DNA of 64,000 nucleotides from Aureimonas altamirensis (GTDB taxonomy: Bacteria; Pseudomonadota; Alphaproteobacteria; Rhizobiales; Rhizobiaceae). Shown here piece by piece: positions 11,114 through 36,954 of this stretch. The stretch covers positions 62,001-126,000 of the forward strand of contig NZ_BBWQ01000012.1 in the NCBI RefSeq assembly GCF_001463885.1, given 5' to 3'. Below the pieces are notes generated by a model, which was given only the letters and a program-made list of their open reading frames with translations, did not search any database and had not been told where the DNA came from. Every line of letters starts with the position of its first letter. Within the stretch, counting starts at the first letter, position 1. Both the position numbers and the translations under genes were made by a program.

Positions 11114-11255
11114 GCGCCCCGCATCAAGAGTTGGGCGCGCCCAACGCCAACCTGCCGATCCGGGCAAGGTGGTGCTTCCGCAAGGAAGGATGTGGCCTTT
11201 CCGGCAACCAAACGGACAAGCCCCATCGTCGCGCTGCTCACAGCAGGGACATGGC

Positions 11256-11826: not shown

Positions 11827-12023
11827 CACCAAACCCATGGCTTTCGCGGATAGGCGGGCCTTGCTCCTTCTGGAAGATAGGGCAGGCTTGCGCCGAAGTG
11901 GAACCTGAATCGGCGGAAATGGCAAAGCCTTCCACCAGCAAGGTAAACGCACTAGTTTGCTTGTCTGTTGGGTAGCGGCGTCGCGCGTTGTGAGTGTACT
12001 GGCGCGCGCTACTGGAGGACGAC

Positions 12024-12932
12024 ATGGAAAGACCGGATCTGCCGCAGGGGCTCCCCGAAGGGCTCGACGAAAAGAAGACGATCGCGCGCGAATGGTTCGA
12101 AACCCTGCGCGACAGGATATGCGAGACCTTCGAGGCCATCGAGGACGAGATGGAGGAAGACGGCGGCACGCCGGCCGGACGCTTCGTTCGCACGCCCTGG
12201 TCGCGCGACAAGGATGGCGGCGGCGGCGTCATGTCGATGATGCACGGCCGGGTCTTCGAGAAGGTCGGCGTCCACGTATCGACGGTGCACGGGCAATTCA
12301 GCGCGGACTTCGCCAAGCAGATTCCCGGCGCCGGCGACGACCCGAATTTCTGGGCCTCGGGCATTTCCCTGATCGCCCATATGCGCAATCCCAACGTGCC
12401 GGCCGTGCACATGAACACACGCATGGTCGTCACGACCGGGCAATGGTTCGGCGGCGGAGCAGACCTGACACCGACGCTGGCGCGCCGGCGCAGCCAGAGC
12501 GACCCGGATACGCTGGCCTTCCACAAGGCGATGAAGTTCGTCTGCGACCGGCATGCCGGCGTCGCCAACTACGATCGCTTCAAGCAATGGTGCGACGAGT
12601 ATTTCTTCCTGCCCCACCGCAACGAGGCGCGCGGCATCGGCGGCATCTTCTACGATTGGCTGCACTCGCCGATAGAAAGCGGCGGCTGGGATGCCGATTT
12701 CGCCTTCACGCGCGATGTCGGCAAGGCCTTCATGGTGGTCTATCCGCACCTCGTGCGCCAGAACATGCGCAAAAGCTACACCGAGGCCGACCGCGAGGAA
12801 CAGCTCATCCAGCGCGGACGCTATGTGGAGTACAATCTGCTCTACGACCGGGGCACGCTGTTCGGGCTGAAGACCGGGGGCAACGTCAACTCGATCCTGT
12901 CGTCCATGCCACCCGTGGTGAAGTGGCCCTGA
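12024..12932 (+). CDS. hemF: Oxygen-dependent coproporphyrinogen III oxidase
   Basis: The protein has 302 residues, normal for HemF. The enzyme converts coproporphyrinogen III to protoporphyrinogen IX with O2 in haem biosynthesis, in the cytoplasm. Diagnostic stretches are [56 protein letters not shown] and [16 protein letters not shown]. The ATG at 12024 has GGAGG five bases upstream, so an in-frame start at 11994 is rejected. Its stop codon directly abuts the stop codon of the convergent DUF1289 gene with no gap. Confidence 0.97.
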
Positions 12933-32934: not shown

Positions 32935-34833
32935 ATGGCGCGTCCGGGCGACAATTCCAGGCCGGGCAAGCTGCCGGCATTCGACCGGGAGCCGTTCCGG
33001 CGCGCCATAACCGGCTGCATGCGCGCCATCGCCGGCGAGGCCGAGCTGGACGTTACCTTCGGCAACGAGCGGCCCGGACTATCGGGCTCCAAGGCGCGCC
33101 TGCCCGACCTGCCGAAGCGGCCGGATGTCTCCGATATCGCGGTCACGCGCGGGCTGGCCGATGCCATGGCCCTGCGCCGCGCCCGGCATGACACCAAGGT
33201 TCATGCCAACCTGTCGCCCGAAGGGCGCAACGCCCGCGCCGTCTTCGATGCTGCCGAGCAGGCGCGGTGCGAGGCGATCGGCGCAAACGCCATGCAGGGT
33301 GTAGGCGACAATCTGTCGGCCATGCTGGAAGACAAGTACCAGCGTTCCAACCTGTCCGCCGTCACCGACAAGGCAGAGGCGCCGTTGGAAGACGCAGTGG
33401 CGTTGATGATCCGCGAGCAGCTCACCGGCCGGCCGGCGCCCGAAAGCGCCCGGGCCGTCGTCGACGTCTGGCGCGACTGGATCGCCGAGCGGACCGGAGA
33501 GCGATTCGGGCGGCTGAACGAGTTGATCGAGGATCAGCGCGCCTTTTCCCGCGCCATGCGTGACGTTCTCGTGGCGATGGAGATGGCCGAGGAACTGGCC
33601 AACGAAGAGCCCGAAGAAAGCGGCGACGACGAGGAGGCCGGCGACAACCAGGCGCGCGACTCCGAGGAATCGGGCGCGGAAAAAGAAGCCGGGCAGGAAG
33701 ACTCCCAGCCGCAGGAAACCGATGTCGAAGGCGAGACCGACGAGGCAGCCGAGGCCGAGGCTTCCGACGCATCCGCCGACGACCCTTCGGAGGATGATTC
33801 CGCCGATACCGAAGCGCCGGGCGATACGCGCCGTCCCAACCAGCCGCTGACGTTGCAGGCGGGCGACAGCGACTACAAGATCTTCTCCACCCAGTTCGAC
33901 GAAATCGTCGGCGCCGAAGACCTGTGCGACGAAGAGGAGCTGGAGCGCCTGCGCTCGTTCCTCGACAAGCAGCTCGCGGCCCTGCAGGGCGTGGTCGGGC
34001 GGCTGGCCAACCGTCTGCAACGCCGGCTGATGGCGCAGCAGAACCGATCATGGGACTTCGACCTCGAAGAGGGCTATCTCGATACGGCGCGGCTGATCCG
34101 CCTTGTCACCGATCCCATGCAGCCGCTGTCCTACAAGATGGAGCGGGACACCGAGTTCCGCGACACGATCGTGACGCTGCTCATCGACAATTCCGGATCG
34201 ATGCGTGGACGCCCGATCACCGTTGCAGCCACCTGCGCCGATATCCTTGCCCGGACGCTGGAGCGATGCGGCGTGAAGGTGGAAGTTCTGGGCTTCACGA
34301 CCCGCGCGTGGAAGGGTGGCCAGTCCCAGGAGCAATGGCGCAAGGAAGGCAAGCCGCCTCGCCCCGGCCGGCTCAACGACATACGCCACATCGTCTACAA
34401 GTCGGCCGACGCGCCCTGGCGGCGCGCAAAGCGCAATCTGGGCCTGATGATGCGCGAGGGGTTGCTGAAGGAAAATATCGACGGCGAGGCGCTGATCTGG
34501 GCTCATAATCGCCTTCTGGCGCGCTCGGAACAGCGGCGTATCCTGATGGTCATTTCCGACGGAGCACCGGTGGACGACTCCACCTCCTCCGCAAACCCCG
34601 GCAATTACCTGGAGCGGCACCTGCGCTCCGTCATCGACGAGATCGAGCAGCGTTCGCCCGTGGAGTTGCTGGCCATCGGCATCGGCCATGACGTGACGCG
34701 CTACTATCGCCGCGCCGTCACCATCGTCGATGCGGAAGAGCTGGCCGGCGCCATGACGGAACAGCTTGCTTCCCTGTTCGACCTGGAGGGTGAAGGCGGA
34801 GGAAGTCGACGTCGGGCCGCGTCCCGTCGTTGA
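32935..34833 (+). CDS. cobT: Cobaltochelatase subunit CobT
   Basis: The protein has 632 residues. The N-terminal part (about 1-215) is CobT-specific. It is followed by a long highly acidic linker (about 217-300, mostly Glu/Asp with Ser and Ala) and a C-terminal von Willebrand A domain whose MIDAS motif is DNSGSMRG. CobT assembles with CobS into the ATPase motor of the aerobic cobaltochelatase. The acidic linker is a family feature. The stop overlaps the TTG start of the next gene. Confidence 0.97.
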
Positions 34834-35849
34834 AGCTCGCAAGGCGGATTTATAGCCGGCTCGCCTGTTGCTGGCTTGTGCTTGCGGTCGCCACGGCCGC
34901 GCAGGCGCAGACAGCGGTTACGCTGACGCCCACCGCCATCGACACCTTCCTGCCCGGCAGCACGACGACGCGCTTCGGCGCGCTGGAGTATCGCGCCGGC
35001 TTCAGCTTCCGCCCGTCCGAGCGGCGCCTGCAGGGCATTTCGGGCTGGCGGTTTACCGATGCCGGCGGCGGCCGCTTCCTGGCCGTGACCGACACCGGCC
35101 TGTGGTTTGCCGGAACCATCCTTCGCAATTCAGACGGTTTGCCCATCGGCATCGCCGACGGGCAGGTTGCCCCCATATTGGATGGCAGCGGCCGGCCGCA
35201 GCCGCGCAAGGGCGATGCCGACGCCGAGGGGCTGACGATCTCAGAGGGGCGGGTACTCGTATCCTTCGAGCGGGATCATCGCGTCGTCGCCTATGGGGTC
35301 GCCGGCCCCATCCCAGGCGCTGCGCTGGCCGAGCTGGATTTCCATATCCCCAGCCGCGAGCTTCGCCGCAACCAGGGGCTGGAGGCCATCGCCACCGCCC
35401 CGGACGGCAGAACCATCGTCGTCAGCGAACAATCCCTGGATGCGGACGGCAATCTGTTCGCGGCGGTGCTTGGCCCCGCCGGCGGCGTCTTCAAGGTTGC
35501 CAGAAACCCGCCATGGCATGTCACCGACGCGGCTTTCCTGCCCTTTGGCGATCTCGTGCTGCTGGAACGCCGCTACGAAGGCTTCGGACGCATCGGCATG
35601 CGGCTGCGCCGAATCGCCGGCGGCGACATCGAGCCCGGCGCGCTGGTGGATGGCGACATCCTGATGGAAGCCGACGGCCGCTTCGAGATCGACAATATGG
35701 AAGCTTTGGACATCTTCCGCGACGCGGCGGGGGACATCGTCTTCGCCATCGCCTCCGACGACAACGGCTCTTTCTTCCAGCGCAACCTTTACCTTGAATT
35801 TCGGCTCGTGGCCGAGGATCAGGCGCGCGCTCCCGGCGCTTCCCGGTAG
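34830..35849 (+). CDS. Exported esterase-like activity of phytase family protein
   Basis: The protein has 339 residues with a signal peptide (about 1-26, cleavage near AQAQT). The mature part is a beta-propeller-like domain with repeated Gly/Asp strands, such as [21 protein letters not shown] and [15 protein letters not shown]. It matches the esterase-like domain seen in some phytases. Substrate is unknown. The start is TTG at 34830, giving a TTGA overlap with the cobT stop. Its last 31 bp overlap the convergent transporter gene. Confidence 0.83.
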
Positions 35850-36514
35850 GGCAGCACCATGTTGATGATCACCCGGTAGGGCACCAGGCCGAAAACGGCC
35901 ACAGCCAGCTTGACGGCGAAATCTCCGAGTGCCCAAGACAGCCAGCGCGGCGCATCCGTACCGGTGAAGACACCCAGAAGCGGCGCCCCCTCCAGTGCGA
36001 AGCCATCATTCGGGCCGAGAATCACGAAGAGCGGCGCGAAGGCGATGGAAAAGAACAGCAGCGTATCGATGATGGTGCCGGCAACGCCGGAGGCCATCGG
36101 CGCCTTCCACCAGCTCTGGCGGCGCAGGCGGTTGAACACCAGGATATCGACAAGCTGCGCCACCAGAAAGGCCATCCCGCTGGCCAATGCGATGCGCACC
36201 AGGCGTCCGGCCTCCAGCCCGAATGGGATCACGCCAAGCTGGAACAGCAGCGGCGGCAGTACGATCGACGCGGCGATGGCCGTCGCGAACCCGCCATAGA
36301 CAACACGGCGCGCCATGACCGGGCCGTAGAGCCGATTGTTGATGTCGGTGACGATGAAGGCGAAGGGGTAGACGAAGGCACCCCAGGTCAGGATGTCGCC
36401 CAGCGACAACGCCCCGACCGTGCCCTGTACCGGAAACTGCACGGCGATATTGGACGCCAGGACGATCAACGTCATGGCCAGGACCGGAAGGACGTAGTGA
36501 CGGGGAAGCGACAT
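35819..36514 (-). CDS. Queuosine precursor transporter (QPTR/YhhQ, DUF165)
   Basis: The protein has 231 residues with about six membrane helices. Family marks are LASNIAVQFPVQ, GAFVYPFAFIVTDINNRLYG, FLVAQLVDILVFNRLR and ASGVAGTIIDTLLFFSIAF. Members import preQ0/preQ1 or related queuosine precursors. The ATG at 36514 follows TGGAAC; those bases are part of a preQ1-I-like pseudoknot, which supports both start and substrate. It lies after the rpmB terminator and therefore has its own promoter or leader. Confidence 0.92.
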   Translation of the reverse strand: MSLPRHYVLPVLAMTLIVLASNIAVQFPVQGTVGALSLGDILTWGAFVYPFAFIVTDINNRLYGPVMARRVVYGGFATAIAASIVLPPLLFQLGVIPFGLEAGRLVRIALASGMAFLVAQLVDILVFNRLRRQSWWKAPMASGVAGTIIDTLLFFSIAFAPLFVILGPNDGFALEGAPLLGVFTGTDAPRWLSWALGDFAVKLAVAVFGLVPYRVIINMVLPYREAPGARA

Positions 36515-36520
36515 GCGCGT

Positions 36521-36554
36521 GTTCCATTTTTTTAGGCTGGGGTATGGCACCAGC
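36521..36554 (-). promoter_or_regulatory. PreQ1-I-like riboswitch
   Basis: Read on the minus strand from 36554, a stem GCTGG/CCAGC (P1) encloses a short loop. It is followed by an A-rich strand CTAAAAAAA and then TGG, which can pair with CCA in the loop. This gives an H-type pseudoknot. The segment ACCCCAG just before the A-tract matches the Thermoanaerobacter preQ1-I aptamer as I remember it. TGGAAC is also the ribosome-binding site of the transporter start 6 nt away, so ligand binding would block translation. No covariance model was run. Confidence 0.72.
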
Positions 36555-36589
36555 GTTCCACGGATATCGCGCTTGGATGTCCGCACGCG

Positions 36590-36614
36590 AAAAGGCCCCG
36601 CCGCCGGCGAGGCC
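36590..36614 (-). terminator. Rho-independent terminator of rpmB
   Basis: On the minus strand GGCCTCGCC pairs with GGCGGGGCC around GGC and is followed by TTTTCG. It begins about 40 bp after the rpmB stop. Confidence 0.8.
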
Positions 36615-36654
36615 CATCAGTTCAGTGCGCCGGCCGAACCGGCGAAACGCCAGT

Positions 36655-36954
36655 TCAGGCGGCTGCGTCGGCCGAAGCGACCTTCTTGGCGATCTGACGC
36701 TTCAGCAGCCGGGCGCGCTGCGACAGATCGTCTTCGGAAGCCTTCAGAAGGAAAGCGTCCAGACCGCCGCGATGCTCTACCGTCCGCAGCGCGTTGGCGC
36801 TGATGCGGAGCCGGTAACGCTGACCGAGCGAGTCGGAAATCAGCGTGACGCTGCACAGGTTCGGCAGGAAGCGGCGACGCGTCTTGTTGTTCGCGTGGCT
36901 GACATTGTTGCCAGACTGGACGGCCTTGCCAGTCAGTTCGCAAGCGCGCGACAT
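36655..36954 (-). CDS. rpmB: 50S ribosomal protein L28
   Basis: The protein has 99 residues. It opens [20 protein letters not shown] and continues [12 protein letters not shown], the L28 signature. The alphaproteobacterial C-terminal extension ends in [10 protein letters not shown]. The ribosome-binding site AAAGGTGATCCT sits just before the ATG at 36954 and is nearly a perfect anti-Shine-Dalgarno complement. A good sigma-70 promoter lies about 100 bp upstream. A long open frame further upstream is not coding. Confidence 0.98.

Follow-up and report, generated by a model that had tools for sequence, protein, structure and literature searches.

The window, that is, the whole 64,000-nucleotide stretch of Aureimonas altamirensis DNA analysed here, carries on its minus strand yhhQ, a gene for a queuosine-precursor transporter, and directly upstream of it a 34-nt leader element of preQ1-I type. 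The 231-residue gene product scores 94.5 bits against the Pfam family Vut_1 (cut-off 27.2) and 96.8 bits against TIGR00697, the queuosine precursor transporter family (cut-off 50.95), which bears out the gene assignment made in a preliminary description of this DNA. The upstream neighbour is rpmB; of 46 loci examined, 45 have it on the same strand as yhhQ and no more than 600 nt upstream. In E. coli, yhhQ is flanked by tusA and dcrB. The element had been placed between an rpmB terminator and the start codon, and a scan for promoters and terminators across 36480-36760 detected no terminator-like site there and no promoter. The convergent neighbouring open reading frame (34830-35849, plus strand) gives a Pfam Phytase-like match of 126 bits. 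The features that concern us are as follows.

35819 to 36514, minus strand: coding sequence of yhhQ, the queuosine-precursor transporter, 231 aa (Vut_1, TIGR00697)
36521 to 36554, minus strand: whole preQ1-I-type element, 34 nt, seen in the sequence and recurring in leaders of the genus and the family
36550 to 36554, minus strand: 5' strand of P1, GCUGG (nt 1-5), pairing with 36536-36540
36548 to 36549, minus strand: L1, U6 and G7, as placed in alignment A3; E. coli and roughly half of the family leaders have U7 instead
36544 to 36547, minus strand: 5' strand of P2, CCAU (nt 8-11), anti-AUG; pair 8-31 is C-G or G-C and free of mismatches in G7 leaders
36541 to 36543, minus strand: L2, ACC, read from the sequence; C14 is 36541
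36536 to 36540, minus strand: 3' strand of P1, CCAGC (nt 15-19), read from the sequence; relatives with G19 read AGG at the same end, a likely Shine-Dalgarno sequence
36528 to 36535, minus strand: L3, C-U-A6; the A-tract is present in strict-motif leaders, and the search expression itself requires 6-9 A
36524 to 36527, minus strand: 3' strand of P2, AUGG (nt 28-31); the AUG it contains (36527-36525) is not in the yhhQ frame in the window
36523 to 36525, minus strand: GGA, the likely Shine-Dalgarno core, 8 nt before the ATG at 36514
36655 to 36954, minus strand: rpmB, ribosomal protein L28 (Ribosomal_L28, PF00830), the upstream neighbour

Read from 36554 to 36521, with the sequence and coordinates given in the preliminary description, the element is GCTGGTGCCATACCCCAGCCTAAAAAAATGGAAC, which divides into GCTGG-TG-CCAT-ACC-CCAGC-CTAAAAAA-ATGG-AAC and ends 6 nt before the ATG at 36514-36512. 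In the numbering used here (nt 1-34), P1 is formed by nt 1-5 and 15-19 and P2 by nt 8-11 and 28-31, the A-tract covers nt 22-28 and the AUG is nt 28-30. A first helix, a second pairing and an A-rich third loop that together overlap the translation-initiation region had been proposed, and all of these hold in the sequence and are conserved in leaders of the family. The second pairing had been given as CCA with TGG; the pairing itself stands and its extent is revised, since four pairs (CCAU/AUGG) can form and not three. C14 (36541), directly 5' of the P1 3' strand, occupies the position of the preQ1 specificity cytosine of preQ1-I riboswitches (PMC10622847, in excerpt). This base was fixed by the regular expressions that gathered the relatives, so their agreement at C14 is no extra proof. 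With up to three mismatches allowed, the window contains a single match to the family consensus, and 100 shuffles contain none. The predicted ligand-free hairpin has an energy of -6.5 kcal/mol in the window and of -3.5 and -5.7 kcal/mol in two relatives, from which P1 alone may already mask part of the Shine-Dalgarno sequence. The hexamer TGGAAC stands twice on the minus strand of the window, at 36555-36560 just before P1 and at 36521-36526, where the element ends; one related locus (L002) retains the upstream copy and another (L003) lacks it, and the repeat is probably due to chance.

The distribution of the element was followed in two samples of leaders and in several genome scans. In the first sample, homologues of the transporter protein were found in 51 of 61 relatives, and 46 of the 53 matches were read, seven second or weak ones being omitted. 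The element is present in 32 of these 46 leaders, all located by the protein alone: 21 of 21 in the genus, 11 of 14 elsewhere in the family and 0 of 11 in other families of the order; the 14 loci that lack it are accordingly 3 from the family itself and 11 from the others. The second sample covered 199 genomes of the family, 188 with a homologue, and yielded, among the matches listed, 126 leaders found nowhere in the first sample (26 loci and 100 fetched), with the weakest matches and 20 places already covered left out. Among the matches listed, 121 of these 126 leaders carry the element, 119 with the strict motif and two (L271, L272) with a longer third loop, while the remaining five (L268, L355, L363, L368, L383) show no motif by eye. 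The two long-loop leaders belong to one other genus of the family; they have the same aptamer, its third loop carrying GACACC ahead of A7, and a layout of the Aureimonas type in which the start lies downstream. The element is common to most of the sampled Rhizobium-Agrobacterium-Mesorhizobium family. In an own-family genome of 1.1 Mb (L045), GCTGGTGCTCAAAAAATGACC stands just upstream of the yhhQ match and looks like the remnant of a shortened element.

A pattern scan of named genomes returned at least 118 stretches; because the letters of P1, CAU, the A-tract and AUG are prescribed by the pattern, their invariance in this set is given by construction. The genera recovered are Rhizobium, Sinorhizobium, Agrobacterium, Mesorhizobium, Neorhizobium, Shinella, Hoeflea, Brucella/Ochrobactrum, Bartonella (metagenome-assembled genomes, MAGs), Aurantimonas and Aureimonas, which we take to belong to one broad Rhizobiaceae in the GTDB sense. 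Several unnamed Hyphomicrobiales MAGs and one labelled Bauldia litoralis (L165) were also recovered and may fall outside Rhizobiaceae. In the Bauldia litoralis MAG the loop has 10 nt, with one extra base before the P1 3' strand, and a 208-aa open reading frame opens at the AUG of the element. Among the matches listed, the AUG of the motif opens a yhhQ homologue in 76 of 80 pattern loci.

A covariance model built on the element, R1, gave matches at E<=0.1 in 37 of the 397 genomes scanned in the order, and the 19 matches with E below 1e-4 are every one from the family itself. In the class, 2 of 385 genomes matched, namely the own genome and one other at E 0.0026 (L387), and R1 found no further copy in the own genome at E<=0.1. 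Strong matches are confined to the family across both scans, each of which was run with stricter filters that lost some weak matches. Of two small-genome members of the family in the order scan, one (G200) gave a weak match and one (G409) none. Four weak matches from outside the family (L188, L189, L192, L387) were read; the joint features of loop, P2 and A-tract are absent from them, and they were taken as chance. The rpmB gene is also found upstream in 10 of 11 other-family loci that lack the element. Given this shared neighbourhood in element-free families, yhhQ has most simply been inherited in place, and the element would have arisen, or been inserted, in place within the family.

The pairings vary to very different degrees. 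In alignment A3, with 36 distinct rows, pairs 2-18, 3-17, 4-16, 5-15, 9-30, 10-29 and 11-28 are invariant, in part fixed by the collecting patterns. The number of paired cells, the number of cells changed on both sides and the covariation score exceed those of all shuffles (0 of 500 reach them), while the numbers of changed pairs and of pair types do not (495 of 500 shuffles reach them). The informative position is pair 8-31. Among the matches listed in the protein-guided sample, the leaders with G7 (n=58) have G-C in 51 and C-G in 7, with no mismatch; in 160 distinct contexts, mostly collected by pattern, the corresponding counts are 72 and 25, again with none mismatched among 97. Leaders with U7 (61 of 119, among the matches listed) are without the 8-31 pair, and their P2 consists of the three invariant pairs. 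In rows with U7 and C8 from the protein-guided sample (n=61, among the matches listed), nt 31 is A in 29, C in 25, U in 7 and G in none, and in the 160 contexts the counts at this position are 40, 12 and 11, with G in 0 of 63. The E. coli-like loop seems to avoid pairing C8 with G31. Taken together, the U7 and G7 rows also limit which second codons yhhQ can have. A tree of 162 proteins, trimmed of their first 15 residues, requires no fewer than 7 changes of the class at nt 7/8/31 and no fewer than 2 at nt 19. Conservation of the A-tract and of the pairings with compensatory changes in orthologous leaders had been named as a check; for P2 it is borne out, and P1 is conserved and almost invariant, so that covariation is not independent proof of P1. 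The H-type pseudoknot of P1 and P2 with an A-rich L3 is seen in P2 covariation at 8-31 in the G7 leaders and in the conservation of P1 and the A-tract.

A short and very conserved element could also be a DNA operator, the conservation being that of a repressor site. An operator appears hardly credible here: in most relatives the element keeps a fixed place relative to the start codon, nt 8 and nt 31 of the G7 leaders change together as complementary bases, and Aureimonas retains the AUG even out of frame, which pairing in P2 would require.

The same aptamer is combined with two arrangements of the start region. In the first, seen in 134 loci with G19, P1 ends in CCAGG and AGG is present in all, 8 nt before the AUG of P2; this AGG is likely the Shine-Dalgarno sequence. 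The P2 AUG is the in-frame start of yhhQ in 118 of 121 element-bearing family leaders among the matches listed, and in the G19 leaders of the protein-guided sample it is in frame with no stop before the homology in 118 of 118, likewise among the matches listed. In a wider set, the AUG is in frame without a stop in 137 of 139; the remaining two loci (L104, L122) are truncated before the frame can be judged. The outer pair 1-19 in the 134 G19 loci is C-G in 1, U-G in 10 and unpaired in 123. In the second arrangement, seen in 24 loci with C19, the pair G1-C19 is gained in 24 of 24 and the upstream AGG is lost; the AUG is followed by GA in all 24, against 1 of 134 G19 loci, and an in-frame ATG or GTG stands 12-17 nt downstream in all 24, again against 1 of 134.

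The window follows the C19 layout, with its AUG out of frame and 13 nt before the start at 36514. Throughout Aureimonas the AUG is present in 21 of 21 leaders and in frame in 7 of 21 (one with an early stop), about the level of chance, so it seems to be retained in this genus for pairing and not as a start. The GGA within P2 is likely the Shine-Dalgarno sequence there, with the start 12-17 nt downstream. The Aureimonas-type layout is also found outside the genus in three loci (L277, L271, L272).

The closest known relative of the element is the preQ1-I type III riboswitch, whose crystallised E. coli representative also comes from yhhQ (PMC10622847, in excerpt). The loop bases named in that source, as excerpted, agree with the E. 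coli K-12 leader, which reads UUGGG-UUCCCUCAC-CCCAA ... AAAAAGG. Three Rhizobiaceae leaders (L022, L040, L042) read CUGG-UUCCAUCAC-CCAG ... AAAAAAAUG, and with the loop counted from U6 to C14 the E. coli loop UUCCCUCAC and the Rhizobiaceae loop UUCCAUCAC match. Both systems precede the same gene and have C14 and an A-rich L3, a 9-nt loop is found in the window and most of its relatives, and P2 falls at nt 9-11/28-30 in the numbering of the E. coli crystal construct when aligned by eye (PMC10622847, in excerpt). The last A of L3 (nt 27) stands at the place of A27, which contacts the ligand in the E. coli type III riboswitch according to the same excerpt. The differences lie mainly in P2, the core of which is CCU/AGG in E. 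coli and CAU/AUG in Rhizobiaceae: pair 10-29 is C-G there and A-U here, and the P2 strand is the Shine-Dalgarno AGG there and AUG here. In addition, the G7 forms have the further pair 8-31, and L3 is short and nearly constant in most relatives.

Against the type III consensus, the window itself departs at two positions, with G7 in place of U7 and C13 in place of A13. After the P1 5' strand it has UG where type III has UU, the latter being present in 61 of 119 strict leaders among the matches listed; at the specificity position it has CC for AC, which occurs in at least 105 of 119 strict leaders; and its P2 strand reads AAUGG where type III has the Shine-Dalgarno strand AAGG, AAUG being found in 121 of 126 family leaders among the matches listed. 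Control of yhhQ, as in type III, is suggested by position, the element standing before the Vut_1/TIGR00697 gene. The location also differs: type III is almost exclusively gammaproteobacterial (PMC10622847, in excerpt), and the present element belongs to Rhizobiaceae. With G7 in the window against U7 in type III, and with P1 and most of P2 nearly invariant, the element might instead be a constant RNA structure or sequence that determines yhhQ translation, perhaps as a binding site for a protein or a small RNA, and would then not sense preQ1. We consider this quite improbable: the element agrees with E. coli type III at each position in the length of its loop, in U6, in C14 and in the A that precedes P2, and it stands before the same gene as in E. 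coli.

A covariance-model hit for preQ1 had been named as a check. The Rfam model RF00522 gave no match to the element at E up to 10 and none at the same place in the own genome, and the element does not score above the gathering cut-off, a practical and not a structural yardstick. The same model finds nothing at E<=10 on the E. coli K-12 yhhQ leader (L050), used as a control, and exceeds its cut-off in only 1 of 14 named control genomes. Because the E. coli leader was missed too, the RF00522 result is uninformative and cannot refute the assignment. The likeness to type III, the four-pair P2 and the coincidence of the P2 AUG with the start codon in most relatives were all missed in the preliminary description.

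With a probability of about 0.88, we read the element as a translational OFF riboswitch for preQ1, possibly also for preQ0, which would be a Rhizobiaceae variant of preQ1-I closest to type III. The identity of the gene, the frame of the AUG, the conserved sequence and the pair exchanges in P2 are observed; the ligand and the direction of control are inferred from homology and from the gene downstream, and the Shine-Dalgarno roles are likewise inferred. When ligand is scarce, the P1 hairpin alone would form, ribosomes would start on yhhQ and the precursor would be imported. When preQ1 occupies the pocket, made by homology from C14, U6 and A27, CCAU (nt 8-11) would pair with AUGG (nt 28-31) and the initiation region would be buried. 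In most sampled Rhizobiaceae the buried triplet would be the start codon itself, with the AGG at the end of P1 the likely Shine-Dalgarno sequence; in Aureimonas, including the window, the GGA in the buried P2 strand would be the likely Shine-Dalgarno sequence and the start codon would lie 12-17 nt further down. The element is best described as a putative new start-codon variant of the preQ1-I riboswitch.

The relation of this variant to the gammaproteobacterial form was followed in a scan of 398 genomes of the phylum, in which position 10 could be C or A and position 29 G or T. A match was found in 58 of the 398 genomes: 46 with C..G, 10 with A..U (all from the family), one with A..G and one with C..U, the mismatched rows (G463, G451) being counted as misses. 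A backwards control pattern gave no match among the matches listed. AAGG is found in the 46 matches from outside the family, and 20 of these 46 C..G loci were opened, of which 20 of 20 lead into yhhQ a few bases downstream; going by the distribution described in PMC10622847 (in excerpt), these genomes are presumably gammaproteobacteria. A Fisher test on the pairing of positions 10 and 29 gives p = 2e-9, with rows that are related to one another. The exchange of C10-G29 for A10-U29 weighs less than its count, since the two groups that it divides are distant from each other and one event could account for it.

We think it probable that in most Rhizobiaceae preQ1 binding would pair the yhhQ start codon itself (CAU/AUG), with AGG at the end of P1 as the Shine-Dalgarno sequence and no separate expression platform. 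A single compensatory exchange would have turned the Shine-Dalgarno AGG of the gammaproteobacterial form into AUG, Aureimonas and two further genera (L277; L271 and L272) would again have the Shine-Dalgarno sequence in P2, and the element would have arisen or been planted in place, perhaps convergently with type III.

The identity of the ligand has to be weighed together with the queuosine pathway. YhhQ transports both preQ0 and preQ1, and type III riboswitches may not discriminate between them (PMC10622847, in excerpt). This would suit a riboswitch of the same fold with preQ0 or another 7-deazaguanine as its main ligand, as would the finding that queC is over its cut-off in only 10 of 21 genomes of the genus, from which the others may import a precursor. 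Against this stand the specificity cytosine and the A-tract, which fit preQ1, and the presence of QueF-II in the own genome, where tgt, queC and QueF-II all score above their cut-offs. We regard a main ligand other than preQ1 as unlikely; this reading overlaps the preQ1 riboswitch that we prefer, and the odds of the several readings do not sum to 1.

The queC gene of the own genome has a leader of its own, GGTCGCAG...ACCC...ACAAAACAAGG (L047 1501-1560; contig C15 146532-146571, outside the window), the pattern of which we take to be that of the Tte type II preQ1-I riboswitch. It scores 18.4 bits against RF00522, below the cut-off of 39, and went unreported in another search with that model. 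Such a type-II-like leader is present in 9 of the 10 genus genomes whose queC passes the cut-off, and with two further cases (L246, L255) the total is 11 of 25 queC leaders, of which three (L240, L247, L248) are maybe misplaced, their loci being cut by contig ends. The yhhQ element shares with the type II riboswitches of Tte and Bsu (PMC11625349, in excerpt) the H-type pseudoknot, the specificity cytosine before the P1 3' strand and the A-rich L3; it differs from them in the gene and in the letters of loop and tail, which in the own-genome queC leader are GGUCGCAG..ACAAAACAAGG.

Among riboswitches that act by direct occlusion, such as SAM-II, the expression platform likewise lies inside the P2 helix of the aptamer, with the ribosome-binding site in P2 there and the start codon in P2 in most Rhizobiaceae here (PMC10907184, in excerpt). 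Sequestration of the ribosome-binding site inside the aptamer is common among preQ1 riboswitches (PMC2258182, in excerpt), and these have been described as mostly limited to Firmicutes plus one or two proteobacterial lineages (PMC3766115, in excerpt). The term "start codon" is absent from the excerpted parts of PMC10622847 and PMC11625349. Literature searches of titles and the beginnings of abstracts returned no preQ1-I riboswitch with a start codon in P2 and none before a rhizobial yhhQ. The defining preQ1 collection of 2014 may already include such alphaproteobacterial sequences in its alignment.

The element would add a widespread riboswitch of preQ1 type to a family of plant symbionts and pathogens in which the Rfam model does not report it here. 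It also offers a natural experiment, in that the expression platform would have moved between start codon and Shine-Dalgarno sequence on one and the same aptamer, and whether translation can be governed by a pseudoknot in which the start codon itself is paired becomes a testable question. Elsewhere in the window, a SAM-I-IV riboswitch scores above the Rfam gathering score (55.1 against 41.1 bits) at 11116-11221 on the plus strand. It lies about 0.8 kb upstream of an open reading frame at 11994-12932, the product of which, as far as we can judge, resembles coproporphyrinogen oxidase.
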